Below, piece by piece: positions 36,102 to 58,795 of a DNA stretch of 64,000 bases. The position numbers were made by a program, and so were the translations under genes. The notes beneath the pieces were generated by a model, which had not been told where the DNA came from, did no database searches, and was given only the letters and a program-made list of their open reading frames with translations. Each line of letters opens with the position of its first letter. Within the stretch, counting starts at the first letter, position 1. Source of the stretch: Halorientalis salina (GTDB lineage: Archaea > Halobacteriota > Halobacteria > Halobacteriales > Haloarculaceae); contig NZ_SOSC01000012.1 of the NCBI RefSeq assembly GCF_005049285.1, positions 1 through 64,000 of the forward strand, read 5' to 3'.

Positions 36102-36172
36102 CTTCGTCTGTTAAATTCTGAACAGCACCCTCAAAAAGGTACCTTCAGTTGATGGTTCGAGTGGATAAACCG

Positions 36173-36601
36173 TCATTCATGCTCGGCGTTTTCGGCATCT
36201 GGATCCCGGATCACAGTTACTTCGATACCCGTCGCTTCCTCGATGACTTCCTCTGGGTCTCGCTCTATCCCGAACATCACGCTGAGGAGACGTTGCCATC
36301 GATTTCGTCGCTGTTCGCTGAGGATGATCATATCCATCTCGAATTCGATCGCTATTTCGATGACCGCTTCCTCTACAAAGAACCCATCTCGAATAACGTA
36401 GTTCGCGTCGAGCTCCCCAACTGAAGATTCAACTGCGGTTCGGAGCTCTTTCCGACTGACTCGACGGTCCTCCAGAACTTGATTAAGGTGGAAAATCAAC
36501 AGTTCAGTTCCTTCACGACCGTCGGTTAAGTCCTGGCCGCGGCGGATGGCCCGTCTGTTCGTCTCCGTGAGAGGATATTGGACAGGAACGAGAACGTTCA
36601 T
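36173..36601 (-). CDS. Universal stress protein (UspA) family
   Basis: The 142-residue protein starts MNVLVPVQYPLTETNRRAIR. It has the Usp alpha/beta core: strand-helix N-terminus, LLIFHLNQ, a middle helix and MDMIILSEQRRNRWQRLLSVMFG, then VTVIRDP. The glycines of the classical ATP-binding motif (G-2x-G-9x-G-S) are mostly absent, so nucleotide binding is doubtful. A TATA-type box (CATTTAACC, minus strand, about 36628) lies 25 bases above. It starts the ion/stress island. Role: small stress or transporter-associated sensor, not more precise. Confidence 0.75.
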   Translation of the reverse strand: MNVLVPVQYPLTETNRRAIRRGQDLTDGREGTELLIFHLNQVLEDRRVSRKELRTAVESSVGELDANYVIRDGFFVEEAVIEIAIEFEMDMIILSEQRRNRWQRLLSVMFGIERDPEEVIEEATGIEVTVIRDPDAENAEHE

Positions 36602-36727
36602 TCACTACCGCTAGCGATGCCGGGGGTTAAATGTATATTTGTCCCACAGGCGCAGTCGCTCGGAAGATGAGTGTGCAGAATCTATGAAGCTTCAACACAC
36701 TCCGGATACTACCGCCAGTACTGACCT

Positions 36728-37975
36728 ATGGCGGAGGATTTAGCAGAGATTCAGCAGGAGATTGCGGCTTCGTCCCATCCCACAACAGAATTCAGCCAAC
36801 TGAGTCGAAGCCGACAGCGGGACGTGTTCTTTCTGCTTCCGCAGAGTCTCCAGGAATCGCTCGTCGAGGATATGACCGGAGAAGAGCTCCAGCGATTCGT
36901 TCGCCGGCTCGGCCCCGACGAGGTGGCTGACGTTCTCGGATTCGCGGACGAAACCACGAGAACAGACGTCCTGCAACGACTCGACGAGGATCGCCGAGAG
37001 AAGGCCGAGTTCCTGCTCGAATTCAGTCCGGAGAGTGCTGCTGGCCTGATGCACCTGGACTACGTCACGGTCGATGCGACTAGGGATATCGACGATGTCG
37101 CCCACCGAGTACAGCGATACGAGGACCGAACGGGGAACGTACCGACGATCTTTGTGACCGAGGACGACGAGCTGGTCGGCGAACTTCCCGGGCAAGCGAT
37201 CGCGATGGCAGACACCGACGACGTCGACCTCCACGACTACGTCCAGGAAACACCTGTCGTCACATACGATACGCCCGACACGGAGGTCGTCGACGTGCTC
37301 CGAGAGCATCCGGAGAGCTCAGTTGCAGTCCTCGACGACGACCGAACCATTCTAGGAGTTATCTATGCCGGGGACCTCCTCAGAGTCATCGAAGAGGAAG
37401 CCGGAGAGACACTCTACGAATTCACCGGTGTTCGAGAAGAGGAGAGCATTCTCGACGGACCGCTCACGAAGGTTCGGTACCGGTACAAGTGGTTGATCAT
37501 CAACCTCGGAACGGCGTTTCTTGCCGCGGCGGCGGTCGGCTTCTTCGAGGACACGATCGCTGCGTTCACGCTCTTGGCCGTGTACATGCCCGTCGTCGCC
37601 GGGATGGGTGGGAACGCCGGGACGCAGTCGATGGCGGTGACCGTCCGTGGCATCGCCCTCGAACAGGTCTCGCTGTCGACCGGGCGTCGAGCGGTGATCA
37701 ACGAAATCATCGCAGGTGGAGCGAACGGCCTCATCACCGGCGTCCTCGTTGCAGCGATAGCGTCGGTATTCAATCAGAGTCCGCTGCTGGGGCTCGTACT
37801 TGGCGTCTCGATGATCCTGAACCTCATCATCGCCGGATTCTTCGGAACGACGATTCCCCTGGTGCTCGAACGTATCGGCAAGGATCCCGCGACGTCGGCG
37901 ACGATCTTCATCACGACGGCGACGGACGTTCTCGGGTTCTTCATCTTTCTCGGATTGGCGCAATCCGTTCTCTAA
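36728..37975 (+). CDS. mgtE: Magnesium channel/transporter MgtE
   Basis: The 415-residue protein has the MgtE layout: an N-terminal helical domain (SQLSRSRQRDVFFLLPQSLQ, 20-125), a CBS pair (about 125-250, GVIYAGDLLRVIEEE) and five membrane helices from about 260. The pore helix TM carries AGMGGNAGTQSM (about 290-300) and the last helices contain FFGTTIPL. The CBS/N domains sense cytosolic Mg2+ and close the pore. It reads on the plus strand, separate from its neighbours. Confidence 0.93.
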   Translation: MAEDLAEIQQEIAASSHPTTEFSQLSRSRQRDVFFLLPQSLQESLVEDMTGEELQRFVRRLGPDEVADVLGFADETTRTDVLQRLDEDRREKAEFLLEFSPESAAGLMHLDYVTVDATRDIDDVAHRVQRYEDRTGNVPTIFVTEDDELVGELPGQAIAMADTDDVDLHDYVQETPVVTYDTPDTEVVDVLREHPESSVAVLDDDRTILGVIYAGDLLRVIEEEAGETLYEFTGVREEESILDGPLTKVRYRYKWLIINLGTAFLAAAAVGFFEDTIAAFTLLAVYMPVVAGMGGNAGTQSMAVTVRGIALEQVSLSTGRRAVINEIIAGGANGLITGVLVAAIASVFNQSPLLGLVLGVSMILNLIIAGFFGTTIPLVLERIGKDPATSATIFITTATDVLGFFIFLGLAQSVL

Positions 37976-38104
37976 ATTCTCTCCTTCAGTTCGCTGGCAA
38001 TGATGAACCTCTGAAGTCACGGCCCGGATGCCCCAGTGATCTTTGCGAGTTTACACGCTGTTGTGAGGCCACAGTATTATTCGGACGGCTGACGGAGAGT
38101 CGGT

Positions 38105-38590
38105 ATGACCGTCTACGAGACCGACCTCCCCGGAGTTGGCCGCAAATTCGACCTTGAATTAGCTGATGACAGTCTTGCATCGGTCGTCATCCATCACGAC
38201 GGCCGGTGTGAACTCTATAAACGGCCCCACCGTGAAGCGAACGGTGAGAAACTCCTTGACCTGACGGGAGAGGAAGCGAACAAACTCGGGTCGATACTCG
38301 AAGGGGCGTACTTCGAGTCTGTGAACGTGGATGAACTAACCGTCCCGCTCGGTGACGCTATTATCGAATGGATCGACATCCCTGAAGACTCGCATATCGC
38401 AGGACAGACACTCGAGGAAAGCAAAATCAAACGCCAAACAGGCACGACGGTAATCGCCATTCAGCGGGATACCGAGACGATACCGAATCCGGGAGCTGAT
38501 TTCGAACTCCACAGCGAGGATATCCTCGTTGCTATCGGGACACGTGAAGAGCACGCGGCTCTGGACGATTTGGTCGAACGCGGTCCCTGA
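38105..38590 (+). CDS. KhtT-like regulatory protein with TrkA-C domain
   Basis: This 161-residue protein has an N-terminal domain (MTVYETDLPGVGRKFDLELA, to about residue 80) and a C-terminal RCK_C/TrkA-C domain (IEWIDIPEDSHIAGQTLEES...TVIAIQRD...DILVAIGTREEH). This is the layout of B. subtilis KhtT, which controls the K+/H+ antiporter KhtU and binds c-di-AMP. The antiporter candidate lies head-to-tail opposite (38599-39798), 8 bases apart and convergent, and a second KhtT gene is upstream of that. Confidence 0.85.
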   Translation: MTVYETDLPGVGRKFDLELADDSLASVVIHHDGRCELYKRPHREANGEKLLDLTGEEANKLGSILEGAYFESVNVDELTVPLGDAIIEWIDIPEDSHIAGQTLEESKIKRQTGTTVIAIQRDTETIPNPGADFELHSEDILVAIGTREEHAALDDLVERGP

Positions 38591-38598
38591 TAGCGTCG

Positions 38599-39798
38599 TC
38601 ACTCGGTGTGGAACGTACGTGCTACCCGTTCGATGAGATGTGCGTTCCGCATAAGTATCGTGCCGAGGATACTCGTGAGCAGGACGTAACCGACGGTGAA
38701 TGCCGGGATCGTTTCCCTGAGAGCGTCTGTGGTCCCCGCAGTGACGAGGAACGCGGCGATCACCAGCGAGAACTCCCCGCGGGGAGCGAGCGCACTCGCC
38801 ATCCTCGATGCCTGCTCGATCGAGAGACCGAAGCTCCGACCGGCGAAGAACCCACTCACAATCTGTCCGAACACCGTGACGACGACGGCAACGAGAACGA
38901 ACCCCGCGACCGAGAGCACGAGTCGCGGATCGGTCTGGAGACCGATGACGAAGAAGAACACCGCTGCGAAGAGGTCACGGCTCGGGGCGAGTTTACTCTC
39001 GATACGCTCGACGTGCGATGTCTGTCCGAACGCCAGGCCGACGAGGAACGCCACGATAGCGTCACTGACACCGGCAGCGAAACCGAGACCGGCCACGAGC
39101 GTAGTCACACCGAGGACGCCGAGGAGGAATAGTTCGCTTGACCGGATATCGAACATTCTATCGAGCCAATCGCCGCCGTAGTAGGCGAACAGCGTCAGTA
39201 CTACCAACACGATCGCTGCCTGTCCGAGTGTCCGACCGAGTGAAGCAATGTCGGCAGCACCCAGGAGGACAGCAGAGAGGATTGCGAACACAGCGGCGGT
39301 GAGAACGTCTTCAATGACGATCACGCCGAGAATCCCTTCGCTCTCCGGATTGACGATCCACTCCAGATCAAGGAGGGATTTGGCGATAATGACCGTCGAC
39401 GAGTTGAACGCGATTAGACCGATGAACAGTGATTCGAGAAGGTTGAATCCGAAGAGGAGACCGACGACGATACCGAGTGGGAAACTGACGCCGACGTCGA
39501 TTGCGCCGGCACGGAGGAACTGCGAACGCTTCTGGATTAGCGAGGTCAGGCTCAGCTCCAGGCCGACGAAGAATAGCAGGAAGATCACACCGAGATCTGC
39601 CAGTAGTCGGATGAACTCCGTCGAGTCGACGACCGTGAGAGAGACGCCGCCGATCGAGGGCGCAAAGGGGCCGATGAGAACACCGACGAGGATGTACGCG
39701 GGGATGACCGACTGGCCGACACGAACGGCAATCAAGCCACCAATCGTGAGGACTGTAAGAAAGATGCCGGCCGAAAGTATGAGACTCGTCGTAGCCAC
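38599..39798 (-). CDS. KhtU-like CPA2 cation/proton antiporter
   Basis: This 399-residue protein has about 12 membrane helices and no C-terminal TrkA domain. CPA2 marks include the conserved acidic and Gly-rich helices (GLIAFNSSTVIIAKSLLDLE, VIVIEDVLTAAVF, FLVGLAFGQTS, ASALAPRGEFSLVIAAFLV). In KhtTU systems the regulatory TrkA-C domain is a separate protein, and here a KhtT gene lies on each side (38105-38590 and 39858-40346). The second is 59 bases upstream in the same direction and is probably in the same operon. Role: K+(or Na+)/H+ exchange. Confidence 0.88.
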   Translation of the reverse strand: MATTSLILSAGIFLTVLTIGGLIAVRVGQSVIPAYILVGVLIGPFAPSIGGVSLTVVDSTEFIRLLADLGVIFLLFFVGLELSLTSLIQKRSQFLRAGAIDVGVSFPLGIVVGLLFGFNLLESLFIGLIAFNSSTVIIAKSLLDLEWIVNPESEGILGVIVIEDVLTAAVFAILSAVLLGAADIASLGRTLGQAAIVLVVLTLFAYYGGDWLDRMFDIRSSELFLLGVLGVTTLVAGLGFAAGVSDAIVAFLVGLAFGQTSHVERIESKLAPSRDLFAAVFFFVIGLQTDPRLVLSVAGFVLVAVVVTVFGQIVSGFFAGRSFGLSIEQASRMASALAPRGEFSLVIAAFLVTAGTTDALRETIPAFTVGYVLLTSILGTILMRNAHLIERVARTFHTE

Positions 39799-39857
39799 GG
39801 ATATGACAGGTATCTACAGGTGAATTATTGTTCCGGTGGTGGCTTCTTTTTAATGGA

Positions 39858-40346
39858 CTATTCGACTTTCGAGAGCAGCTCTTCGAGCGCTTGGTGTGCG
39901 TCGTCATCGCCGACGACGACCAGAACGTCATCTGGTAGTAGCTGTGTGTCTGGCGTCGGATTCGCAATCGTCTGGTCACCGCGTTCGACAGCAAGGACAG
40001 AGACCCCCGTCTGGGTTCGGAGACCCACTTCGCCAATTGTCTGACCGGTAACCGGTGAATCATCCGGGATGGCCACCCATTTGATTCGAGCTCCTGAGAG
40101 CACATCGTCGAGATCGTCGGAGACGGGGTCGAAAAAGACGCCTTCGAATATCTCCGCTATTTTCTCTGCGTCGCGCTCACTCGTCGTGAACAGTTCCTCG
40201 CCGTCGGCGTCCGGTTCATCTCGCCAAAATGCGCTTCGTTTACCGTCGTTGTGGACAACGATCGTGAATACCCCTCCGTCGGGAAACGAGATCTGGTATC
40301 GTCGTCCAACGCCCGGGAGCTGGGTCTCGAAAACCTTCATATCCAT
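39858..40346 (-). CDS. KhtT-like regulatory subunit of the antiporter
   Basis: This 162-residue protein, starting MDMKVFETQLPGVGRRYQIS, is clearly related to the product at 38105 (shared ...TDLPGVGR start and TrkA-C end). The C-terminal RCK_C reads IKWVAIPDDSPVTGQTIGEVGL...VSVLAVERGDQTI...DVLVVVGDDDAH. It precedes the KhtU gene by 59 bases, so these form the functional pair. The ATG at 40346 is followed by a second at 40340. Promoter region shared with the divergent K+ channel gene. Confidence 0.88.
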   Translation of the reverse strand: MDMKVFETQLPGVGRRYQISFPDGGVFTIVVHNDGKRSAFWRDEPDADGEELFTTSERDAEKIAEIFEGVFFDPVSDDLDDVLSGARIKWVAIPDDSPVTGQTIGEVGLRTQTGVSVLAVERGDQTIANPTPDTQLLPDDVLVVVGDDDAHQALEELLSKVE

Positions 40347-40492
40347 AGTGGACTGAGCAGCGTAATCATTGTTCGGACGTCATCGGAGTCAAAACGAACT
40401 GAAATTTACGGTCGTCTTTGGTTACCGTCTCTTTGGGTTACGGTCATACCAGCGCTCTTATATCGGTCGTTCAACTGAGTAAGCAGTAAATA

Positions 40493-41359
40493 ATGGCGAT
40501 GGATCCGTCCCTGCCGCCGAAAGAGCGCGTCTATTTTCTGCTCGACGGAAGACATCGAGAGAGCTGGCTCTCTTTGGGGACGAATCTCTTCATTATGGCA
40601 CTTATCGTCCTCAACGTCGCGACGTTTATAGCGGGGACGGTGTCGTGGATCGGTGCCCGATACGGTGAGCTTTTCGCTGCATTCGACGTGTTCTGTGTCA
40701 GTGTGTTCACGGTTGAGTACGTGCTCCGCGTCTGGTCGTGTACGGTCGACGAGCGCTACTCGAGCCCAATTCGTGGTCGTATTCGGTTTATGCTCTCCCC
40801 CTACGCGCTTATCGACTTGATCGCGATCTTCCCGTTCTACCTCCCGATCGTGCTCGGAGAGCAAGGTGCAGAACGGATGCTCCGGATTTTCCGTCTATTC
40901 CGCTTGCTGAAAATCGCGCGATACTCGAACTCGCTGACGTTGATTACAAACGTTTTTCGGCGAAAAGCGGAAGAATTGCTGATCACTGTCCTCGTGATGA
41001 GCATCTGGTTGGTCTTCGTGTCCAGCCTGATGTACTACGTCGAGCGGGCCGCACAGCCCGAGGTGTTTTCCAGCATTCCGGCCGCGATCTGGTGGGGTAT
41101 CGTCACGCTGACAACAGTGGGATACGGCGATGTCGTCCCCGTGACCCCACTCGGACGTGCACTCGGGGCGACAGTCGCACTCCTCGGTATTGCACTGTTT
41201 GCATTGCCTGCTGGTATCGTCGCGTCCGGATTTGTCGAAGAACTCGAGCGCCGACGACAAGGATCACAATATTGTCCCCACTGCGGAGAGGAAGTCGACG
41301 AGCTCGTCAACGAACCCCCCAAATCTCATGTTCACGACGAACCGGAACAAGAACAGTGA
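40493..41359 (+). CDS. Voltage-gated potassium channel
   Basis: The 288-residue protein has six membrane helices and a K+ selectivity filter TTVGYGD (about 205-211) in the pore loop. The fourth helix has regularly spaced Arg/Lys (RMLRIFRLFRLLKIARY, about 125-142), i.e. an S4 voltage sensor like KvAP. S6 is followed by a cytoplasmic tail with CPHC (one cysteine pair) and acidic residues. Divergent from the KhtT gene at 40346. Confidence 0.93.
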   Translation: MAMDPSLPPKERVYFLLDGRHRESWLSLGTNLFIMALIVLNVATFIAGTVSWIGARYGELFAAFDVFCVSVFTVEYVLRVWSCTVDERYSSPIRGRIRFMLSPYALIDLIAIFPFYLPIVLGEQGAERMLRIFRLFRLLKIARYSNSLTLITNVFRRKAEELLITVLVMSIWLVFVSSLMYYVERAAQPEVFSSIPAAIWWGIVTLTTVGYGDVVPVTPLGRALGATVALLGIALFALPAGIVASGFVEELERRRQGSQYCPHCGEEVDELVNEPPKSHVHDEPEQEQ

Positions 41360-41421
41360 TCTAAGATTGATGCATTCAAACCAGTCAAATTACCTCTCTC
41401 GGGTTTTATGGAGGGTATCTA

Positions 41422-41622
41422 ATGAGTAATACCGATAACGACGAAGCCCTGAGTGAGATCGTCGCATTTAACCTCAATCCGTATGTACTGGGGATACTCG
41501 TTCTAGCGGTGGGTCTGTGGGTATTCGGTCATACAGAATATGGAACGCTTGCCTTTCTCCTATTCCTACTCATATTCACACTCAGGAACATGTGGTTTGC
41601 ATATTCAGAACTCCTTGGATGA
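41422..41622 (+). CDS. Small two-helix membrane protein
   Basis: This 66-residue protein starts MSNTDNDEALSEIVAFNLNP. It has two membrane helices (PYVLGILVLAVGLWVFG and GTLAFLLFLLIFTLRNMWFAY). It follows the K+ channel gene by 62 bases on the same strand and its end overlaps the convergent CBS gene by 18 bases. It may be a channel accessory peptide. No family is recognised. Confidence 0.55.
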   Translation: MSNTDNDEALSEIVAFNLNPYVLGILVLAVGLWVFGHTEYGTLAFLLFLLIFTLRNMWFAYSELLG

Positions 41623-42009
41623 CTGTTCCTCGGAGTCTGCGACCGCCCTAGAGATGTCGCGATCGCTGAGATACCCGATAATCTCGTGTGCCTTCTCGAC
41701 GAGTAGGTACCGGAGGCCGTTCTCCTTCATCATCGCGGCCGCAGTTTCGAGGCTCTCCGACTCGTCTACCGTAACTACCGGTGAGAGTGGACAGTCTGCA
41801 AGCGACGTAGTGGAAATGTTCGCCCCATCATCGACTAATTCAACCACCTCTGTATGAGTGAAGACGCCGAACGGCTCGCCATTCTCCGTCACGACCACTA
41901 AATCGGTATCCGATTCAGTGAGCCTCTCAACTGCGCGGGCAGCATTCCGTTCCTTCTCCAGTTCGGCTGCCCGTTTGCGCATAACTTCTCCAATGTAAAA
42001 TGGGATCAT
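41605..42009 (-). CDS. CBS-domain protein
   Basis: From the ATG at 42009 the product has 134 residues (MIPFYIGEVMRKRAAELEKE). After a helix come two CBS repeats: ERLTESDTDLVVVTENGEPFGVFTHTEVVEL and VVTVDESESLETAAAMMKENGLRYLLVEKAHEIIGYLSDRDI. CBS pairs bind adenine nucleotides and regulate linked enzymes or transporters. A TATA box (CTATAAATT, minus strand, about 42030-42038) lies 20-28 bases above, favouring this start over the one at 42030. It faces the small membrane protein gene convergently. Confidence 0.85.
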   Translation of the reverse strand: MIPFYIGEVMRKRAAELEKERNAARAVERLTESDTDLVVVTENGEPFGVFTHTEVVELVDDGANISTTSLADCPLSPVVTVDESESLETAAAMMKENGLRYLLVEKAHEIIGYLSDRDISRAVADSEEQSSKEF

Positions 42010-42120
42010 GAGTACCGACAGTGCGAGCACGAATTTATAGGCTGTGGGACGACCATCTGAAATTCACCGATTCGGTCGAAATCTCGGATTCAATAGTCCT
42101 GAGCTCGTAAAGTCAATCGA

Positions 42121-43365
42121 CTACTTGAGTGTCTGTTCCCGGGTCTGCTCGTCCTCTTCTTTGGTGTCCTGCAACCGTGTCGGCTCGAACATCTGCGGAG
42201 AGTCGTCCGCCTCTAGATCGGTGAGTTGGACCTGTTCCAGTACTTCGAGCTTCCGGAGAGCTTCGGGGTGTCCAAGAGCGTACAAATCGTCACCAGCCTG
42301 GATATGGTGATCTTGCTCCAGAATCGTTCCGATCTCACCGTTAGCAGAGCGAACAGCGATCACAGTAACGTCAAGACGGCCAATTGCCTGACCGACGAGT
42401 GGACTTCCCGGTTGTATCTGGATGATGCTCATGGTCTCGTCTTCTCGCCGGAGCATCGCAGCGAACTCCCGCTCCGGGTGGGAGTTCGCTGAGAGAGTCA
42501 TCAACCGGTGATTCGCTGTCGGATCAATCTCGGTTGCCGTTGCCTCGTCAAGCACGAGTGTCGCAACCGACCCGACGCTGGCCCGGAGTTCAGCCGTTCC
42601 GAGTCTGGTCTCTGCCCCGTCATTATCGACGCGCCATAACTGAACTGTATCGCCGGGAGAGGCACTAAACGGCGGATCTGCGGAAACCGCCACACCCGCG
42701 GAGTTCGGGGGGATGGTCTGCCCCAATCCGACAGTTCGCTTTCCGACTGCGAGGTAGGTTACGGTCCCGTCCGGATCGATATCCACGTCAACGTACCCAA
42801 CATCGTGTTCTTCTTTGAGACGAGCCGCCACCTGCGAGTGTAGTTCCTCGAGCGTGAGCCCCTTCGGGAAGTCCATCGTTTTGCCGGCGATCACCCGCTT
42901 CGTCTCTGTATCGACGGGATCGTATCCCTCGATATCCTCGATCGACTCGGGAATCGAGACCGTGATGAACCGGCCACTGGCCCGGACGATGGGGCTTAGA
43001 TCGGGCTGGAGGCGCTTCCAGGTAAACCGGTCGGAAGTGCCGGCGCTATCGCCGAGCGAACGGCCAACATAGGATGCGAATCCCGCTACCACAAACACCG
43101 AGATATTGAGTAGTGCCTCCCCGGTGGACACCATCTCGCCCCGGTTCGAAATGAACTGGACGAGTGCGAGTCGGGTATTGAGGTAGACGGCAACCACTCC
43201 GAGTCCGACGATGAGCGTCGCGCCCTCCGGGAACTCGTCTCCGGTTCGCACTCGGAAGACGAACGTGACGATTGCGGTCACCACGAACGCGAGCAGAGAG
43301 AGCGCGACAATACTCACGAGTCCTTCGACCAGCGGGTGGGTGGCGACCGTCGAAACGAGGCTCAC
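42121..43365 (-). CDS. Membrane protein with TrkA-C domain (second of a pair)
   Basis: The 414-residue protein has three N-terminal membrane helices (VEGLVSIVALSLLAFVVTAIVTFVF, LIVGLGVVAVYLN, LLNISVFVVAGFASYVG), then a soluble region with a repeated strand domain (150-310) and a C-terminal RCK_C/TrkA-C domain (SIIQIQPGSPLVGQAIGRLDVTVIAVRSANG...DDLYALGHPEAL). It is a paralogue in layout of the preceding gene, overlapping it by 4 bases (43362-43365). These look like regulatory or transport proteins in which TrkA-C follows a membrane anchor instead of an antiporter. The exact transport role is unknown. Confidence 0.7.
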   Translation of the reverse strand: MSLVSTVATHPLVEGLVSIVALSLLAFVVTAIVTFVFRVRTGDEFPEGATLIVGLGVVAVYLNTRLALVQFISNRGEMVSTGEALLNISVFVVAGFASYVGRSLGDSAGTSDRFTWKRLQPDLSPIVRASGRFITVSIPESIEDIEGYDPVDTETKRVIAGKTMDFPKGLTLEELHSQVAARLKEEHDVGYVDVDIDPDGTVTYLAVGKRTVGLGQTIPPNSAGVAVSADPPFSASPGDTVQLWRVDNDGAETRLGTAELRASVGSVATLVLDEATATEIDPTANHRLMTLSANSHPEREFAAMLRREDETMSIIQIQPGSPLVGQAIGRLDVTVIAVRSANGEIGTILEQDHHIQAGDDLYALGHPEALRKLEVLEQVQLTDLEADDSPQMFEPTRLQDTKEEDEQTREQTLK

Positions 43366-44585
43366 GATACCACCTCCTCAAACTCCCGCAGCTTCGCAGT
43401 ATTCCCGACGACTATCAGCGTGTCTCCCGCGCTGAGTTCAGTCGACCCAGTCGGAGCAATAAGTGGTCCCTCAGTCCGCCGAATCGCCAGAATGACGACA
43501 CCGAAGGTCGTGCGGATTTGCTGGTCGCCGATCGTCGACCCCACAAGCGGACTCTCGTCGTCAAGAGTCACAGAGCGAAATCGATTGCCACCCTGTTTGA
43601 GCACGCCGATGATCTCGTATTCTCGCTGTTTTCCACGCGAATGAACGACCATCGGCGCGAAATCGGAACGGATGACACGTCGCCCATCGTCGTATGGGAC
43701 CGCAATCGTCACGACCCCTTCACCGCCTGTCGTCGTCATCTTCGGAGCGAGCTGTGTGACGACTTCCTCGCCACCGTCTGTCTGTTTCGCCTCCGTGTCG
43801 AGCGGGTCGATAGGGACTTCGGCTCCAGTTGTTCGAGCACTCACAACCGAGCCAGTAACGTCACCTTCTGGAAGTTTCACTGTGACTTTGTCACCACGAC
43901 CGACGCCGGTCGGTAACACCGTCTGAATCGACACGGCTCTCCGTCCGGACGGCACGCGTCGTGAGAGGCCAGCAGCACTCGGTGCGGCTGCGATTTGGGC
44001 TCGCCCCTGTTTGTCGATCGTGATTGATGCCTCAGCAAGTTCGTAATCGGTCAGCAACCGCTCTTCGAGCTTGGCCTCGAGTTCTGGAAGCGAGAGCGTT
44101 GCCGGGAAGCGCCACGAACTCGTCGTTAGCTGGTAGCGAATATTGTCAGGTAGTGGTGGGTATCCTTCGAGATCGGTGATTTCGCCGATCGGACGGACGT
44201 GGACTTGGCCGTACGAGTCGATGCGTTCCACCAGATCCGCTGAAAGCGTCGTTTCCCGCAACGCTTTCAGGGTGAATTTACGTGGCGTTGCAGTGGCGAG
44301 TTTGTCACCCTGGCTATGCGCCCAGAGACTCGCCATGAGGATGACCAATACTGCGGTGATTCCGGTCCAGCTTTCGGCCAACGAGGGGTCTATCAGTCCC
44401 ATCAGCCCACCAGAAACGCCGGCAAGCGTTCCCCCGAGGGCAACGACCCCGAGCCCTGGAATAGTAACGGTCGTGAAGTATTTGAAGAGAAACCCGATGG
44501 AGAAGGCGACGAATGCGGGAAAGATCCCGGCCAACAGACCAAGGTATACACCGAGCAAGACCTCCGTAAAAGCCCCTGTGACCAT
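43362..44585 (-). CDS. Membrane protein with TrkA-C domain (first of a pair)
   Basis: This 407-residue protein has about four N-terminal membrane helices (EVLLGVYLGLLAGIFPAFVAFSIGFLFKYF, LGVVALGGTLAGVSGGLMGLI, AVLVILMASLWAHSQ). A soluble region (ERIDSYGQVHVRPIGEITDLEGYPPLPDN) and C-terminal TrkA-C domain follow (VTLDDESPLVGSTIGDQQIRTTFGVVILAIRR...LSAGDTLIVVGNTAKL). It shares the layout of the next gene, ATGA-coupled. TrkA-C domains bind small ligands such as c-di-AMP or NAD-related molecules, so gating is likely. No ion pore is recognised. Confidence 0.7.
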   Translation of the reverse strand: MVTGAFTEVLLGVYLGLLAGIFPAFVAFSIGFLFKYFTTVTIPGLGVVALGGTLAGVSGGLMGLIDPSLAESWTGITAVLVILMASLWAHSQGDKLATATPRKFTLKALRETTLSADLVERIDSYGQVHVRPIGEITDLEGYPPLPDNIRYQLTTSSWRFPATLSLPELEAKLEERLLTDYELAEASITIDKQGRAQIAAAPSAAGLSRRVPSGRRAVSIQTVLPTGVGRGDKVTVKLPEGDVTGSVVSARTTGAEVPIDPLDTEAKQTDGGEEVVTQLAPKMTTTGGEGVVTIAVPYDDGRRVIRSDFAPMVVHSRGKQREYEIIGVLKQGGNRFRSVTLDDESPLVGSTIGDQQIRTTFGVVILAIRRTEGPLIAPTGSTELSAGDTLIVVGNTAKLREFEEVVS

Positions 44586-44940
44586 TAATTGGCGTCTATC
44601 CTCGGATCCGTATAGGTGTTCTGACCGCTGAAACCGTATGCTATCTATGAGAGTAGAGCTACTGACTGAGCTAGATACCGCCTGACAGGCCGATAGACCG
44701 CGAAGTACTCGGTCGGCTGGTGGCTACATCACTTCTACCGACGATGTTCAGGAACGCAGCACGGCACTGATAGGTCTTCTTACGATACCTGTGAGGATCT
44801 ATTCGATGAGCGATTCGATTACCAATAGTTAAGCGATCTGTGCCATCCTTCGTTCCTTTCAGAACGGAATACAAGGGAACTCTGGAACAACGGCCCCTGA
44901 CACCAATCCTTAAACGTGGTGTCCGAGACCCTACGGTAAG
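44586..44940. other. Divergent intergenic region
   Basis: No frame in these 355 bases has convincing coding character. It separates the TrkA-C pair (minus) from the oxidoreductase gene (plus). CACCTATACGG (minus strand, about 44609) and CCTTAAACG (plus strand, 44909-44917) are the likely TATA boxes, about 25 bases from each start. Confidence 0.5.
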
Positions 44941-45972: not shown

Positions 45973-46061
45973 GCGACAGGTCCGGCAACAGTCTCGTATT
46001 GAGAAGGTCAATCCAGAAGAGATATACCTCCCAGGATGCCGATTAGCGTATCTATATTGAT

Positions 46062-47903: not shown

Positions 47904-47963
47904 TGGAAGCCAGATTTCGAAGCCAGAACGGTCTTCTCACGATATCTCCGTAGTTCAGGCTTG

Positions 47964-49031
47964 CTAGTCGTCTGTACCGTAATCCCCGTTGTGCATTCGA
48001 TAGCCGTCGAACTCACCCCGTCGAATTTCCCGTTCGATCTCATCACGCGTCTCCGTGTCGAGTCGGACGAGGTGGCAGAGCGGATGGCCCGGAAGCGCAA
48101 CCGGATTCTCGAGTACACCGACGATCAGCCCCGTAAAGGGAGCAGTTACGACGTGTTCCTCTGTTTTGAAGTGATCCGTGATCGTACAGATCGTTTCATC
48201 TTCGTGAACAAGCGGATACGGTCCCCACTCCATTTCGACAAGCCCGCCCGTTTCAGCTCGAAGCCACCGTTTCTCGCTGTCAGCCGCGGTCACCTTGTAC
48301 CAACCGGGCCAGTGAACCGGGGTTCCAGGAAGGATCCCGTACTGAGCCAGAACGCTCTCAACGCCATTAACCGCCTTGTCGATCAGGGCAGGTTGAAAAC
48401 GTTGGGCCCGCCCCATCTCGACCGTAATTGTCGGAATTCCATCGGACGTAGCGACCGAACGCAAGGATTTCGATTCCCCAGCCCCGTACAGAATGACGTT
48501 CGCACCGAACGAGCGGGCAAGCGGTTCGACGTCCTCGTTTTCGAGATCCGCCCGAACGTGGAACATCGTGGTCCGGTTGCGCGTTGACGTGTGGAAATCG
48601 ATTCCGAGGTCGCAATTACTGATAAATCGGCTGTAGATCTGATGAGCCATTCGTTCAGCGGTATTACTGCGTTCACGTCCTGGGAATGCTCTGTTGAGAT
48701 CTTGGTCGTAAATCGGGATATACCGCTGTTGAGCCTGGTATGCGGGCACGTTCACCACGTGGAGACAGACGATTGTTCCATGGAGTTCACTTGGCTGATA
48801 CCGGTCCGCAATTTCCTGGACGACTTTCACTCCATTGAGTTCGTCACCGTGAATCGCTGCGGTCAAAAAAATGGTCGGTCCACCGTGCGTTCCGTTGATT
48901 ATCGTGACAGGGATTTCGACCGAGTCGCCGAGGTAGTTCTCCCCCACTTCATACCGGATGTGGCGTTTCTCACCAGGATCGACCTCTGCATCGTATTGGA
49001 AGGGCTCCGGTTCAGAAATATCGGATTCCAT
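47964..49031 (-). CDS. Succinylglutamate desuccinylase/aspartoacylase family zinc hydrolase
   Basis: From the ATG at 49031 the protein has 355 residues. Zinc carboxypeptidase-like motifs: FLTAAIHGDELNGVKVVQ (HxxE zinc site, about 60-70), DLNRAFPGRERSN, LGIDFHTSTRNRT (third zinc ligand His) and IPTITVEMGRAQ (general base Glu). The C-terminal 100 residues are a beta domain with lipoyl-like strands (VVTAPFTGLIVGVLENP). It should hydrolyse an N-acyl amino acid. A GTG at 49043 extends it by four residues. It lies convergently to the SLC13-type permease, which suggests a shared substrate pathway. Confidence 0.85.
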   Translation of the reverse strand: MESDISEPEPFQYDAEVDPGEKRHIRYEVGENYLGDSVEIPVTIINGTHGGPTIFLTAAIHGDELNGVKVVQEIADRYQPSELHGTIVCLHVVNVPAYQAQQRYIPIYDQDLNRAFPGRERSNTAERMAHQIYSRFISNCDLGIDFHTSTRNRTTMFHVRADLENEDVEPLARSFGANVILYGAGESKSLRSVATSDGIPTITVEMGRAQRFQPALIDKAVNGVESVLAQYGILPGTPVHWPGWYKVTAADSEKRWLRAETGGLVEMEWGPYPLVHEDETICTITDHFKTEEHVVTAPFTGLIVGVLENPVALPGHPLCHLVRLDTETRDEIEREIRRGEFDGYRMHNGDYGTDD

Positions 49032-49204
49032 AGGCCACCTCACTCATTGACCAACTAAAACCACAGCGATGCGTGAAATATTGGACTACCATCTCTTGAA
49101 GGAGAACACGACATTATCTCAGAAAAGACGGCGGTCCGCTAAACGGGGACCGGGCAGCCGCTTAAATCAGTATACTCATTGAGGTCGGGACGTACTCTCT
49201 GTAT

Positions 49205-50911
49205 GTGATCGGGCTTCTACAGACTGGGTCGCTTCCCTTTGCGACTGACTTTGCGATCATTATCATTACGGCGGTCCTTCTGAGCTACATCGCCCGGTTG
49301 ACGGGCCAGCCGACCATCGTCGCGTACATCTTCACCGGACTCGTTCTCGGCCCAGTCTTCCTCGACATCGTTTCTCAGTCAGAGCTCGTCGTCTTGATGA
49401 GCGAACTCGGACTCGGATTTCTCCTCTTCCTCATCGGGATGAAGATGCGTATCGACGACATCCGCGAAATTCTCCGACCCATCGTCAACATTGCTATCTG
49501 GCAGACGATTCTCCAGACCGCGCTCGCCTTCGGTGTCGCGTTCGCGCTGGGCTTTACGCTACTCGAGACGACGATTATCGCACTAGCGACCGTCTTCGGG
49601 GCGACGCCGATCATCGTGAAACTGCTTTCCGACAAAGACGAACTGGCGACGCTTCCGGGAAAGATCGACGTCGGCGTCCTCATCATTCAGGACATCTATC
49701 TCGTCATTCTCCTCGCGGTTCTGAGCGCCGACTCACTCTCGAATCCCCAGGAAATCGCCGTCAGCATCGGGACAATACTCCTGTTGATGAGTGGGATCGG
49801 CATCGTCTCGTATCTCTCCGCACGGTATCTCCTCCCGTCGCTGTTCAGGGCCGTTGCCGAGGATAGACGGGCGTTTTTCATCGTCGGTATCGCATGGGCG
49901 TTCGTCTTCATTCTCGGGACCGAACAGCTCGATCTCTCACTCGAGGTCGGGGCGTTTCTCGCAGGACTAAGTCTCGCACAGGTTCCGTACACGAGCGAAC
50001 TCACGGAGCGAGTTCGGCCGATCACCGACTTCTTCATGGTCGTGTTCTTCACCAGCATTGGCCTCCAGCTCGCTGCGGACAACCTTCTGGCCTATTGGGT
50101 CGAAGCGTTAATCGCATCGGCCGCGCTCATGGTCGGGAACTTCCTGATCATCTTCTATCTCATCGACCGCGAACAGTTCACGCCGGAAACGTCGTTCATC
50201 GGGAGCCTCAATATGGCTCAGGTGAGCGAGTTCTCGCTCGTCGTCGGCGCTCTTGCAGTTACTCAGGGCTTCATCGACGCGTCGATACTGGGGTACCTCA
50301 GCCTGATGGCGATCGTCACGATGAGTCTCTCGACGTACCTCATTAACTACAACTACGAGATTTACGAGCGAGTCAAGCCCTATCTGGCACGTTTTGAGAG
50401 CGAGGAAAAACGGGATGTCGACCTCCACGTCTATCGAGATCACGCCGTCGTCGTCGGGTACGACGAGATTATTCGTGCCGCGTTACCGTTACTCCAGGAG
50501 CACTTCAGGGATGTGGTCGTCGTCGATCGGAATCCAGCCCACGCAGAGATCCATCAGTCCGCCGATTACGAGTACATCTACGGCGATTTCAAACACGGCG
50601 AGATCCGAAGCGGCGCCGGGCTCAAGCGAGCCGCGTTCGTGTTGAGTTCGACAGTCGAACCGGATATCAACCGAATCCTCCTCAAGGAGGTTGGGGACGA
50701 GACGGTCGTCTTCGCCGAGGCCGAGTCAACAGAAGATGCAGCTGACCTATACGACCGCGGTGCCCAATACGTCATCCTCAGTACCGCCCTCACGAGTGAA
50801 AAACTGGCCGACCACCTGCGTCGGTATTTCAACGAACCGGAAGAGTTCTGGTCGGTGGTAGACAGCGACATTGGCCACCTCCGCTGGGTCCGAGGTGAGT
50901 TCGATGGTTGA
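49205..50911 (+). CDS. CPA2 (Kef-type) antiporter with TrkA-N domain
   Basis: This 568-residue protein starts at a GTG (49205), about 30 bases after a CTTAAAT box. About twelve membrane helices include LLSYIARLTGQPTIVAYIFTGLVLGPV, ELGLGFLLFLIGMKM, FGATPIIVKLLSDKDELAT and QVSEFSLVVGALAV. From about residue 400 comes a Rossmann TrkA-N domain (HAVVVGYDEIIRAALPLLQEHFRDVVVVDRNP). The first glycine of GxGxxG is replaced (GYDEII), so NAD binding may be lost. It probably exchanges K+ or Na+ for H+. The next gene, another CPA2, overlaps its end by 8 bases. Confidence 0.9.
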   Translation: MIGLLQTGSLPFATDFAIIIITAVLLSYIARLTGQPTIVAYIFTGLVLGPVFLDIVSQSELVVLMSELGLGFLLFLIGMKMRIDDIREILRPIVNIAIWQTILQTALAFGVAFALGFTLLETTIIALATVFGATPIIVKLLSDKDELATLPGKIDVGVLIIQDIYLVILLAVLSADSLSNPQEIAVSIGTILLLMSGIGIVSYLSARYLLPSLFRAVAEDRRAFFIVGIAWAFVFILGTEQLDLSLEVGAFLAGLSLAQVPYTSELTERVRPITDFFMVVFFTSIGLQLAADNLLAYWVEALIASAALMVGNFLIIFYLIDREQFTPETSFIGSLNMAQVSEFSLVVGALAVTQGFIDASILGYLSLMAIVTMSLSTYLINYNYEIYERVKPYLARFESEEKRDVDLHVYRDHAVVVGYDEIIRAALPLLQEHFRDVVVVDRNPAHAEIHQSADYEYIYGDFKHGEIRSGAGLKRAAFVLSSTVEPDINRILLKEVGDETVVFAEAESTEDAADLYDRGAQYVILSTALTSEKLADHLRRYFNEPEEFWSVVDSDIGHLRWVRGEFDG

Positions 50912-52553
50912 GCTCCTGACGCCCCTCGGCGCAATCTTCATCGTCGCCGCCATTTTCCTCGTGTTTGCGACGCGACTAGGGATACCTGCAGTGCCGATCT
51001 ACATCATCGTGGGAGTGATACTGGCGCCGTTTATCCCGCAAGGGACCACCCTTGAGCTCGCACAATGGGGAGTCGCATTCCTCGTGTTCACCTTCGGTGT
51101 TGAAGTCGAACCAGGGCGGTTCCGGGCCGTTGCACGTGACAGCGAGCACGTCGCTGCCCTCCAAGTCCTGCTGATCGGTAGTCTCGTATTCGGTCTAGGA
51201 CTCGTATTCGGACTTGATATGTTGAACGCAGTCTACTTCGCGAGTGCAGCTGCACTCAGTTCTTCACTCGTCGGCCGGGAACTTGCGGTACACGACATTC
51301 GTCGTAATCTCATTCAGGGACGCCTCATCTCGTCGATTCATTTCGCACAGGACCTGTTTGCAGTCGTGCTCATCCTCGTGTTGAGCGCGGACGTGTTCAC
51401 TCCTGATGGTATTGCGCTCAAACTCGGGTACGGCGTCGTTATCCTCCTCGTCGCAGCGCTCGTTCGAGTGTACGTGTTCGATCTTCTCGTCTCGCTATCG
51501 GGGGACTCTGACGAACTCATCATCTTGACCGGAGTCGCGCTCCTCCTCGGGTTCATCAGCCTCGCCGAGCTAACAGGCATCTCGATCGTCGTCGGGGCGT
51601 TCGCCGCCGGACTGGCGATCACACGGGACTTCCCGGACAAATTGGCGCTCGAAGCGGGTCTCGAATCGTTCGACGATTTCTTCGCTGCGGTCTTCTTTGT
51701 CACCGTCGGGAGTCTAATCACGGTTCCCACGCCGCGTGCGCTGCTATTCGCTGGAGTACTGCTGTTCGTAATCGTCGTACTCAAGCCTCTGGTGACGATC
51801 TACGCGCTCCTCTATCAGGGGTACGAAACCAGAACGGCATCGTTGACGAGCTTCGGGCTCGACCAAGTGAGCGAATTCGCCCTCATCATCGCGATTCAGG
51901 CGTTGATACTCGAGCGGATTCAACCGGACGTCTTCGAGGCGATTATCCTCGTTGCGGCACTCACAATGATCACCTCAACCGCGACGCGTCAGTACAGCGA
52001 GCCACTGTACCGAATCCTGATGCGGATTCTCCCGCTGGAATCGACGCACTCCAAACTGAATAGTCGAAGTTCCGTCGACTCATCTCTGACAGACCACGTC
52101 ATTATCGTTGGATACGGCCGACTCGGAACACTTGCGGCGCGGACGTGTGAAGATGAAGGCCAACCCGTTGTCGTGGTCGAACACGATCCGGACAGGCATG
52201 AATTGGCCACAACCCACGAGAATCACATTTTCGGCGATGCAGTTAGCAGCGAAACCTGGGAGCGAGCGAACGCCGATGAAGCGCAATTGATTCTCTCGAC
52301 AGTCTCCGACCGACAGATTTCTAGCCAAATCCTTGGATTAGAAACGGATGCGGATATCATCCTTCGGTCGGACCGCGTCGATGAAGCGGGAGAATTGCTG
52401 GAAGCTGGTGCAGAGTACGTTATCGTTCCCGACTTCCTCGCCTCGGAACAGCTCCTGGAAAAGATTCGAACGGTACTCACCGAAGACGTGTCGCTCGAAG
52501 AGTTGCGGTCACGGAACAAACGCCGCTTACACCAGGACCTGGAATTTCGATAG
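50904..52553 (+). CDS. CPA2 (Kef-type) antiporter with TrkA-N domain, second of tandem pair
   Basis: From the ATG at 50904 (MVELLTPLGAIFIVAAIFLV) the protein has 549 residues with about twelve helices (GVAFLVFTFGVEVEPGRF, SAAALSSSLVGREL, HFAQDLFAVVLILVLS, GLDQVSEFALIIAIQAL). The TrkA-N domain here keeps a normal motif, VIIVGYGRLGTLAARTCEDEGQPVVVVEHD (GYGRLG). It overlaps the preceding antiporter by 8 bases, so the two are co-translated and may form a heteromer in which only this one binds the nucleotide. Extension to 50871 runs within the preceding gene and is not used. Confidence 0.9.
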   Translation: MVELLTPLGAIFIVAAIFLVFATRLGIPAVPIYIIVGVILAPFIPQGTTLELAQWGVAFLVFTFGVEVEPGRFRAVARDSEHVAALQVLLIGSLVFGLGLVFGLDMLNAVYFASAAALSSSLVGRELAVHDIRRNLIQGRLISSIHFAQDLFAVVLILVLSADVFTPDGIALKLGYGVVILLVAALVRVYVFDLLVSLSGDSDELIILTGVALLLGFISLAELTGISIVVGAFAAGLAITRDFPDKLALEAGLESFDDFFAAVFFVTVGSLITVPTPRALLFAGVLLFVIVVLKPLVTIYALLYQGYETRTASLTSFGLDQVSEFALIIAIQALILERIQPDVFEAIILVAALTMITSTATRQYSEPLYRILMRILPLESTHSKLNSRSSVDSSLTDHVIIVGYGRLGTLAARTCEDEGQPVVVVEHDPDRHELATTHENHIFGDAVSSETWERANADEAQLILSTVSDRQISSQILGLETDADIILRSDRVDEAGELLEAGAEYVIVPDFLASEQLLEKIRTVLTEDVSLEELRSRNKRRLHQDLEFR

Positions 52554-52666
52554 TGATGACAGAACCTTGGGATGGAGCCCACCCAGCCTCGTTGTGAATT
52601 CGTACACTCTTCTCCCATATCGGTCGGACCGAACCCCTAAACCCAGTGTGAAACATTCAATACGTA

Positions 52667-53551
52667 ATGACTGATTCGACCACCCAGGGGCCGATTCTCG
52701 TTCCAATCGCAAATCCAGAGACGGCAGACCAACTCGTCTCGACGGCTGCGGATATCGCGACTGACACCGGACGTCCACTCGAGGCGCTGACGGTGATCAG
52801 AGTTCCCGAGCAGGTACCGCTTTCTGAAGGAGAGCGACTCGTCACCGACGAGCGTGAGATTCTCGACTATGCTGCTGATCTCGTCAGCGATCCCGCTATC
52901 CAGGTATCGAGCCGCATTCGTTTTGCTCGCTCGATAGCGAGCGGAATTCTCAGCGTTGCAGAAGAGCAGGACATCGAGACGATTCTCATGGGATGGCGAG
53001 GGCGTCCACGTCGACGGGACATAATCTTAGGTTCCCATCTCGATCAGGTGCTCCGAAAGGCCTCGTGCGACGTACTCGTTAAACGGATGGACGGCGATGA
53101 AGAGCTACAACAAATTCTGCTTCCCGTCGCTGGGGGTCCGAACACAAAACTGGCTGCAACCGTAGCAGGCTCCCTCGCTCGCGTTCACGATGCCGAGATC
53201 CGTGTCATCGTCGTCCACTCACCCAACGAAACAACAGATACACGTGACGAGAAAGAAACGATGTTAGAGGGTGTTATCGCCGGATTTACTGGCGTTCCAG
53301 TGATTACTCAAGAAATCGTGGAGAGTGATTCCGTTGGTGACACAATAGTCGACCAATCGAAAGACGTTGATCTCGTTGTTCTCGGGGCGACGTCTGAAGA
53401 CCTCTTCCGCCGTTCTGTTATCGGATCGCTCCCTGAACAGGTGGGGCGACGATCGGCTAGCTCGGTGCTGATGGTCAAAGAGCACCGAAATATCCCCTCT
53501 CGATTGGCACGGCTCATCTCACGCCTCCGACGCGAAATACTTCGTTTCTAA
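52667..53551 (+). CDS. Tandem universal stress protein
   Basis: The 294-residue protein has two Usp domains: 8-145 (GPILVPIANPETADQLVSTA...IETILMGWRGRPRRRDIILG) and 145-290 (ILLPVAGGPNTKLAATVAGSL...VDLVVLGATSEDLFRRSVIG). The second domain has a fair ATP-loop (LGATSEDLFRRSVIGSLPEQV), the first less so (GWRGRPRRRDIILGSHLDQV). Tandem Usps often sit next to antiporters and amino-acid transporters in haloarchaea. It follows the CPA2 pair by 113 bases and precedes MscS by 25. Confidence 0.88.
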   Translation: MTDSTTQGPILVPIANPETADQLVSTAADIATDTGRPLEALTVIRVPEQVPLSEGERLVTDEREILDYAADLVSDPAIQVSSRIRFARSIASGILSVAEEQDIETILMGWRGRPRRRDIILGSHLDQVLRKASCDVLVKRMDGDEELQQILLPVAGGPNTKLAATVAGSLARVHDAEIRVIVVHSPNETTDTRDEKETMLEGVIAGFTGVPVITQEIVESDSVGDTIVDQSKDVDLVVLGATSEDLFRRSVIGSLPEQVGRRSASSVLMVKEHRNIPSRLARLISRLRREILRF

Positions 53552-53576
53552 CGGTGGCGGAAACCGGAAGCCCGAA

Positions 53577-54776
53577 ATGAGTTCGAGAGCCACTCACTAC
53601 ACACTTATACCGGAATCAACTATGGACAGGACATTGTTCGATATCTCTCACAGCCCAGAATTTCTACTCCAAACCGCTAGCGACATCCCCCTCAGTGACC
53701 GGCCGTGGCTACTCGTCATCGCTATCCTCGTCATCTCATACCTTTTTTCACGGCTGATTGAGTGGAGCGGACATAAACTCCTAGACCAATCAGACTACTG
53801 GCCAGACGACTCGATCAACCGCGCCTTTTTCCAAGAGATTCACATGCCTCTGTACGTTTCAGTAGCTCTTGGCGGGATTTACCTCAGTCTAAGCGTTCTC
53901 GGGGTCGTCGAATCGGGTTACTTCCTCGTCGGTGCCATCCTTTCGATACTCGTCGTGCTGTGGATGCGAGCAGCAAAACGCCTCGGAGGCCAGTGGATCG
54001 AGGCCGTGAATGCGACTGAGAGTGACTATGAATTCTCGCCAATTTTCAAGAACTTCTGGACCATCCTCATCGTTCTCGGGACCGGGATCAGCCTCCTCGT
54101 CATTTGGGAGATTGATATCACCCCGTTTCTCGCGTCGGCAGGAATCATCGGGATCATCCTTGGGTTGGCTGCACAGGAAGCCATCGGTAATTTGATCGGT
54201 GGTGTTTCGCTATACTTCGACGACACCTATAATACCGGAGACGTGATCATCTTGGAGGGCGGCCAGCGAGGGACGGTTACTGACATTGGGATTCGGAGTA
54301 CGACGGTTCTCACACGCGACAATATCCTAATTACAGTCCCGAACGCGGTATTGAACTCCGCATCGGTCGTTAACGAGTCAGCACCACAGCGACGAAAGCG
54401 AATTCGTGTTCCGATTACAGCCGCATATGGAACGGACTATCGAGATGTCGAAGAGATTCTCCTGAGAGTCTGCGACGAAATCCCACTTATCCTCGACTCG
54501 CCCTCTCCGCGGGTGATGTTCCGCGAGTTTGGTGATTCTGCACTCATCTTCGAACTCTGGGCCTATGTTGCCCATCCCTTTAGCGAGCAGCGAGCGATTG
54601 ACCAGATTAATCGGCTGGTCTACGACGAATTCGACAACGCAGACATCGTCATCCCCTTCCCGCAGCGGGAAATCAGCTTCCTCGAATCGGAACAAAATGG
54701 TTTTCCACAACAGTCTGAGGAACAAACATACGTTAATGAGGGGGAAGAACCACTTTCAGATGAATCAAGCAACTAA
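53577..54776 (+). CDS. Mechanosensitive channel MscS family
   Basis: This 399-residue protein has about five membrane helices and the MscS core: TM3-like helix (PFLASAGIIGIILGLAAQEAIGNLIGGVSLYFDDTYNTGDVI) with the pore Gly/Ala pattern and the beta domain that follows (GTVTDIGIRSTTVLTRDNILITVPNAVLN). A C-terminal alpha/beta cage reads RVPITAAYGTDYRDVEEILL. It releases solutes on hypo-osmotic shock. A second ATG (53622, MDRTLFDISHSPEFLLQ) lies 15 residues in and may be the true start. The acidic tail is disordered. Confidence 0.92.
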   Translation: MSSRATHYTLIPESTMDRTLFDISHSPEFLLQTASDIPLSDRPWLLVIAILVISYLFSRLIEWSGHKLLDQSDYWPDDSINRAFFQEIHMPLYVSVALGGIYLSLSVLGVVESGYFLVGAILSILVVLWMRAAKRLGGQWIEAVNATESDYEFSPIFKNFWTILIVLGTGISLLVIWEIDITPFLASAGIIGIILGLAAQEAIGNLIGGVSLYFDDTYNTGDVIILEGGQRGTVTDIGIRSTTVLTRDNILITVPNAVLNSASVVNESAPQRRKRIRVPITAAYGTDYRDVEEILLRVCDEIPLILDSPSPRVMFREFGDSALIFELWAYVAHPFSEQRAIDQINRLVYDEFDNADIVIPFPQREISFLESEQNGFPQQSEEQTYVNEGEEPLSDESSN

Positions 54777-54847
54777 GTAGATCTCTCCCCCAGCTTGTCC
54801 CTGCGATTCTCCGAATTCATTAATGGCGGTCAATTCGTCTCCCTCAT

Positions 54848-55003
54848 ATGGAGTGTAACCGTTGTGAATCGGGAGATGGGGTACGAATGGAAGTCCGATT
54901 CCAGAGTGAGGCGAAGATTATCACGTATCTGTGTCAGAGCTGCGCCCACTCGATGGCTGACGATCCGGAAATTCTCGAAGTTAACCCCTCTCCCCGTCGG
55001 TAA
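54848..55003 (+). CDS. Small zinc-finger protein (51 residues)
   Basis: An ATG at 54848 opens a 51-residue frame with CNRC (3-6) and CQSC (29-32), a classic four-cysteine zinc site. It reads MECNRCESGDGVRMEVRFQS then EAKIITYLCQSCAHSMADDP. Haloarchaea encode many small CPxCG-related zinc fingers of this size, some with roles in stress and biofilm. No other coding is visible between 54777 and 55089. TATA not clear. Confidence 0.65.
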   Translation: MECNRCESGDGVRMEVRFQSEAKIITYLCQSCAHSMADDPEILEVNPSPRR

Positions 55004-55089
55004 CCTCGTCTAAATATCTATAACTATTCTCGAAGGAGAGCACATATTCACCGGCCTTCGACATCCCAATTTGAAACGAAGAACTCCGA

Positions 55090-55650
55090 TTACCGCCACG
55101 CTTGATAGAGTTCATCACGAGGCGTCGTAGTGTACTCTCCATCGTTGAACATTGTTACGCGCCCTGTTTCAGCACTAAGGGTCATCGTCGTAACGACATC
55201 AGGCCGCGCAGACGTGTCGGCGGCACTCATATGGCGTGACCCCATCCAATCGGCATACTGAATGTGAGATTCGGTTGGCTGATTTGGATCAGACGAATAA
55301 TCATGGAATCGGACCATCTGCTCCTGGACGATCCCATCCACACTGATAACGACAGCTCCGTCACGATTGCGAGCAACCTCAGCCGTTGCTTCATAGAAGC
55401 TATCGACGTCATCGAGGACATCACGAGATGTAGATACGGGCCATCTATTCGCCCCCATCGGATCTGCGTGATTTCGCACCGTGTGTCCCGAGACGATGGC
55501 AAAGTAGAGCCCCGGACCAGTGACGTACGGTTCATCCCAAGACTCGAACGCCAAACTAATATCCTCGATACAGAACTGGAGGATATCAACTAACTTTGTT
55601 ACACGTTCATGAGATTGATAATCAATATCCAACGACTCAAGAGGAGGCAT
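55090..55650 (-). CDS. DisA-type diadenylate cyclase (c-di-AMP synthase, DacZ-like)
   Basis: From the ATG at 55650 the protein has 186 residues. The DAC (DisA_N) core has both signatures: D97-G-A in NRDGAVVISVDGIVQEQM and R139-H140 in YADWMGSRHMSAADTS, with the following ARPDVVTTMTLSAETGRVTMF. These bind ATP and make c-di-AMP from two ATP. Haloarchaeal DacZ is known to be such an enzyme. A TATA box (GATATTTATG, minus strand, about 55672-55682) is about 25-30 bases before this ATG, favouring it over the GTG at 55671. It lies beside K+ and osmotic genes carrying RCK_C domains, known c-di-AMP receptors in bacteria. Confidence 0.82.
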   Translation of the reverse strand: MPPLESLDIDYQSHERVTKLVDILQFCIEDISLAFESWDEPYVTGPGLYFAIVSGHTVRNHADPMGANRWPVSTSRDVLDDVDSFYEATAEVARNRDGAVVISVDGIVQEQMVRFHDYSSDPNQPTESHIQYADWMGSRHMSAADTSARPDVVTTMTLSAETGRVTMFNDGEYTTTPRDELYQAWR

Positions 55651-55749
55651 GCCTATTTGTCGTGGAGTCACCCATAAATATCGCCCGCTACACTTGATAC
55701 CGTCCGCGTATTGGGATTTTGTGGCTCTGGTCTGACGTACGTAGTCAGG

Positions 55750-58780: not shown

Positions 58781-58795
58781 CCACCGACCCTCCAC

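Follow-up and report, generated by a model that had tools for sequence, protein, structure and literature searches.

In a haloarchaeal genome, the gene for a predicted diadenylate cyclase (DAC) lies at one end of a run of cation-transport genes. Does this cyclase supply a signal that controls the transporters beside it? In bacteria, c-di-AMP acts on the RCK_C domains of KtrA, CpaA, KhtT, and BusR (PMC8517857), and the Usp domain of KdpD is a further binding site (PMC4686210). The archaeal precedent is DacZ of Haloferax volcanii, the one DAC reported in that organism, which is essential and Mn-dependent, makes c-di-AMP in vitro with the same DGA motif, and is encoded in an operon with mscS2; lowered DacZ gives larger cells in low salt (PMC6741144). 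A preliminary description of the 64,000-nucleotide stretch analyzed here (the window) took a link between c-di-AMP and ion control to be new to archaea. The essential messenger and osmotic phenotype of H. volcanii take away part of that novelty, whereas no archaeal c-di-AMP target protein was found in the open-access literature to which our search was confined.

Boundaries and gene content of the insert

The genome, haloarchaeal and 3.66 Mb in size, carries the window on a contig of 82.9 kb, and the run of cation genes within the window is a discrete insert of 19.6 kb between xseA and a gene for a small DUF1931 DNA-binding protein. Plasmids from three further genera of haloarchaea (Halobacterium hubeiense, Halobellus limi, and Halorussus aquaticus) show the site without an insert: xseA and the DUF1931 gene are adjacent there, and only 25 bp lie between the two segments with a match to the window. 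In window coordinates the left match stops at 36146 and the right match restarts at 55746, and the insert is therefore 36147-55745, with the cation genes and the cyclase inside it; the limits first proposed from the letters, 36173-55650, almost coincide with this boundary. No integrase was recognized within the insert, its end sequences share no common word of 8 bases or more when flanking repeats are sought, and no repeat family was found to connect the two ends. A viral origin was dropped, because viral contigs and phage records gave no match.

Some features of the flanks may be recorded here. Just beyond the right end lie a gene with a weak Doc-toxin match (56524-57399) and a phage-integrase-like gene with a SAM-like domain (57557-58795). 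On the other side, xseA (35050-35889) lacks one base near 35898 in comparison with its relatives on other plasmids; a frameshift or an assembly error may account for this.

The insert comprises around 17 genes, nearly all concerned with cation or osmotic control, and assigned by Pfam unless stated otherwise. The leftmost product is a Usp-like protein (36173-36601, minus strand) that is only weakly matched (NCBIfam KdpD-like, 7.8e-4; Pfam Usp, E 0.016, below cut-off). It is followed by an MgtE-type Mg2+ transporter (36728-37975, plus), adjoined by a second KhtT-like/RCK_C protein (38105-38590, plus; Pfam TrkA_C and sequence). A CPA antiporter (38599-39798, minus; Pfam Na_H_Exchanger), the KhtU-like partner, then adjoins on the same strand the gene for the KhtT-like protein proper (39858-40346, minus), which has a KhtT-type N-terminal part and an RCK_C domain. 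Next come a Kv-type cation channel (40493-41359, plus), a CBS-domain protein (41605-42030, minus), and a pair of membrane-anchored proteins on the minus strand, the first with a C-terminal RCK_C domain (43362-44585; Pfam and hydropathy) and the second with a degenerate one (42121-43365; Pfam below cut-off, hydropathy). An FAD/NAD-binding oxidoreductase (44941-45972, plus), an SLC13/DASS-type transporter with two RCK_C (TrkA_C) domains (46062-47903, plus), and an AstE/AspA-type deacylase (47964-49043, minus) lead to two KefB/C-like CPA2 antiporters with TrkA_N (Pfam and NCBIfam), of which the first (49205-50911, plus) overlaps the second (50871-52553, plus). A double universal stress (Usp) protein (52667-53551, plus) and an MscS-type mechanosensitive channel (53577-54776, plus) precede the short DAC (55093-55671, minus; Pfam DAC, predicted fold, motifs, and dN/dS), which closes the insert at its right end.

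TrkA_C domains number 31 in the whole 3.66-Mb genome, and six of these fall within one 9-kb stretch of the insert, distributed over five proteins (at 38105, 39861, 42124, 43365, and 46062, the last with two). By eye, four of the six look intact and two degenerate. Together with the two further proteins that carry TrkA_N (49205 and 50871), the insert thus encodes seven RCK-type proteins, in keeping with the preliminary count of at least six, and Pfam bears out the identities given there for the MgtE, Kv, CPA, SLC13, and MscS proteins. Beyond that list are the CBS protein and the two Usp-type proteins of the island, as well as a canonical DacZ in the genome. Elsewhere in the same genome, a further cluster of four TrkA_C domains (G000:C19:51388-55382) may represent another such pair of membrane-anchored RCK_C proteins.

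The short cyclase and its distribution

The cyclase open reading frame (55090-55671, minus strand) gives 193 residues from a GTG at 55671 or 186 from an ATG at 55650, the latter being the start annotated in relatives. With that start, the gene at 55090-55650 and its D97GA and R139H motifs are exactly as first described; counted from the GTG, as hereafter, the residues become D104 and R146. A TATA-like box, ATATTTAT (55674-55681, minus), was picked out by eye some 27 nt before the ATG at 55650 and is weak.

Pfam DAC (PF02457) matches the C-terminal half of the window protein only, at 25.1 bits against a cut-off of 27, and a family member in another genome, G250, reaches 27.6 bits. The AlphaFold2 model (pLDDT 84) compares with CdaA at Z 14.3 and with DisA at Z 12.5, the next, unrelated fold scoring 4.1, so that the predicted fold is unambiguously that of a DAC. 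The window protein has D104-G105-A106, the D and G of which are invariant across 34 sequences, and R146-H147-M148, which matches the DacZ of this genome; in the same alignment the H of the RH motif is kept, and the R is replaced by K in many members. Judged by its domains, the window cyclase is not DacZ, because it has no match to DACZ_N (PF19294), the DAC match standing alone, and because a normal DacZ is encoded elsewhere in the genome (DACZ_N match 1.5e-53; around 22% identity to the short DAC). Hydropathy gave no hydrophobic segment in the 193 residues that could serve as an N-terminal transmembrane helix, and dN/dS in the window clade, where calculable, is around 0.05-0.26. The fold, the missing DACZ_N, the lack of a membrane helix, and the low dN/dS together indicate that the short DAC belongs to a subfamily that is under purifying selection and exists alongside DacZ.

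Like DacZ of H. volcanii (HVO_1660), the short DAC is haloarchaeal, has a DAC domain with the DGA motif, and has an osmotic tie, but it is without DACZ_N (PK_C-like), is patchily distributed, is often plasmid-borne, and is additional to DacZ; moreover, mscS2 shares the dacZ operon in H. volcanii, whereas MscS is a convergent neighbor in the window. The DAC fold is common to CdaA, CdaM, and DisA (Z 11-14, at 15-21% identity), yet the short enzyme has neither the N-terminal membrane helices of CdaA and CdaM nor space for the further domains of DisA.

A profile built from 34 members and searched across 391 Halobacteria genomes matched 231 of them. About 66 of these matches are weak (E 1e-5 to 1e-3) and are presumably cross-hits to DacZ; with these removed, roughly 165 of the 391 carry a short DAC, whole or fragmentary. 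Many copies are plasmid-borne. In RefSeq, many members already bear the label "diadenylate cyclase," and the open-access literature searched yielded no description of the family. The window protein is 94, 91, and 88% identical to its counterparts in G053, Natrinema versiforme, and Natrinema sp. DC36, whereas the DacZ proteins of the same three genomes are 77, 73, and 74% identical, respectively, to that of this genome, and the cassette has therefore moved horizontally.

DacZ was found in all but two of the 391 genomes. One of the two is a 360-contig assembly; the other, G250, is a single contig of 98% completeness with two short DACs, and no other DAC was found in it. One of its short DAC loci is L156 (G250:C1:1368200-1388100), and L056 is also tied to the observation of a genome without DacZ. 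If c-di-AMP is as essential in G250 as in H. volcanii, a short DAC must make it. As a sign of activity this is suggestive only, being one genome, in which the chance of a short DAC was about 0.4 anyway.

Linkage to transporters and candidate receptors

The preliminary description placed weight on a linkage of cyclase and transporters in relatives, which holds in several clades and fails for most short DACs. We sampled 40 short DAC loci, at most a few per genus, took 40 random stretches of the same contigs as controls, and searched both with identical families, seeded from the window island and three linked plasmids. Within 3 kb, 11 of the 40 loci have one or more cation-transport families beside the short DAC, against none of the 40 controls (McNemar p 0.0005); within 5 kb the counts are 11 and 3 (p 0.019), and within 10 kb, 13 and 3. 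In a larger set with flanks, partly picked from plasmid hits and so not an unbiased sample, 26 of 76 loci are linked within 5 kb, around two thirds having no listed transporter. When the linked state at these 76 loci is mapped onto a tree built from 86 short DACs, it requires 13 changes compared with a mean of 22 in shuffles, a clustering that near-copies inflate. The five rows of the tree closest to the window are all linked to cation genes, as are all eight loci of a clade containing Haloarcula, Halosimplex, Haloplanus, and relatives, and several smaller clades are linked too, with differing gene orders. A general linkage of short DACs to transporters is accordingly rejected in favor of one that is confined to some clades.

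The arrangements themselves are varied. At L132, the genes for a KhtT-like protein, DAC, CPA2, and CPA2 follow one another on one strand, with gaps of around 100-150 nt or overlaps; in Halosimplex and a second genus, the order on one strand is APC-Usp, DAC, TrkA, and TrkH; and at L080, L129, L139, and L151 a CPA gene follows DAC at 26-44 nt, measured between domain ends. From their strand and spacing, these three types of set are apparent operons, and their differences argue against a single inherited block. The contents of the islands likewise differ between plasmids. A DAC-transporter fusion suspected at L064 was rejected, as the long stop-to-stop frame and the APC-Usp match are in different frames and hence represent adjacent genes. 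In the window, the DAC gene stands alone, tail to tail with MscS, and therefore forms no operon with transporters.

Among the candidate receptors of the island, the KhtT-like protein (39858-40346) stands out, matching residues 5-152 of Bacillus subtilis KhtT (7agv) nearly over its full length (E 2.9e-16). Like KhtTU of B. subtilis, the island pair consists of a near full-length KhtT-like subunit and an adjacent CPA antiporter gene; it differs in being archaeal, horizontally moved, and located on the same island as a cyclase, and its KhtT-like subunit is a putative c-di-AMP receptor. The RCK_C domains of the island also resemble those of KtrA, CpaA, and BusR in retaining most of the hydrophobic pocket, but the polar residues of the pocket differ. 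When the KhtT-like RCK_C domain was aligned with BusR and KtrA, most hydrophobic pocket positions were kept and the polar residues were not, and RCK_C domains of the GsuK type aligned at least as well. RCK_C domains are widespread, often with other ligands, and some of the proteins that align equally well are not, to our knowledge, c-di-AMP receptors. The pocket residues were therefore dropped as non-diagnostic of c-di-AMP binding.

A proposed cation cassette with its own signal

On balance, we favor the view that the insert is a mobile cation and osmotic cassette with its own c-di-AMP synthase, whose messenger controls the linked transporters through RCK_C. In such a scheme, the 19.6-kb block would have arrived horizontally, bringing the cyclase with it; the short DAC would make c-di-AMP from ATP, on top of the output of chromosomal DacZ; the messenger would bind the linked transporters at their RCK_C domains, that of the KhtT-like subunit most likely being the first; and the balance of K+ (perhaps also Mg2+) efflux and uptake would shift upon a change in salinity. 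By analogy with Bacillus, raised c-di-AMP may cause the KhtT-like subunit to open K+ efflux, although which sign the control takes at molar K+ is conjecture. Control of the linked transporters by c-di-AMP is, on the genomic evidence, a well-supported but unproven hypothesis. Against it count the two thirds or so of loci with no listed transporter within 5 kb, the K that many members have for the R of the RH motif, and the other ligands that RCK_C domains often bind; in addition, from gene orientation, the window DAC is not co-transcribed with a transporter, and cytoplasmic c-di-AMP made by DacZ would reach the same targets.

A rather unlikely alternative is that the short DAC serves the whole cell by adding dosage or another input to the DacZ pool, its place on the island reflecting joint selection by osmotic stress. 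That c-di-AMP diffuses, that 389 of 391 genomes have DacZ, and that many short DACs are chromosomal and unlinked would all fit, whereas the tight, same-strand spacing of DAC and its KhtT-like, CPA, or Trk neighbors in separate clades suggests a closer tie. It is also conceivable, with a distinctly low probability, that the short DAC has little or no catalytic activity and instead senses nucleotides or tunes DacZ as its partner. The R to K replacement in many members, the tandem divergent copies of some genomes, and the Pfam score under the cut-off point this way; the D and G of DGA, unchanged in all 34 sequences, the RHM kept in the window, and the complete genome of G250, with short DACs only, point the other. 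That the cyclase is a mere passenger, moved by chance with ion-transport genes of the kind that haloarchaeal plasmids gather, seems most improbable despite the unlinked two thirds of loci and the variable island contents, since it is already weakened by the same-contig controls (0 of 40 within 3 kb, against 11 of 40 loci) and by the linkage of several clades whose gene orders differ.

If the insert is indeed a cassette that carries its own synthase, it would account for the acquisition of extra, ready-wired osmotic control by organisms with molar K+, and its candidate RCK_C receptors, encoded together with a cyclase, form a short list of archaeal c-di-AMP target candidates. Tentatively, and with rather less confidence, the idea might be extended to the widespread stand-alone short DAC family as a dedicated signal source of mobile cation cassettes, with circuits of cyclase and RCK_C moving between archaea and DacZ replaced in at least one lineage. 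The DacZ-less genome G250 is a natural setting in which to test the short enzyme.

Two further groups of short DACs deserve mention. Tandem pairs of divergent copies occur at L140, L142, and L143, on two separate branches of the tree, and possibly consist of one catalytic and one regulatory copy. In the Natrialbaceae, chromosomal short DACs (L043, L065-L074, L079, L084, and L087) lie near genes for DUF790 (Bax1) and an XPB-type helicase, at L043 between the two, and have no transporter link; by analogy with DisA, this clade may have a possible link to DNA repair.
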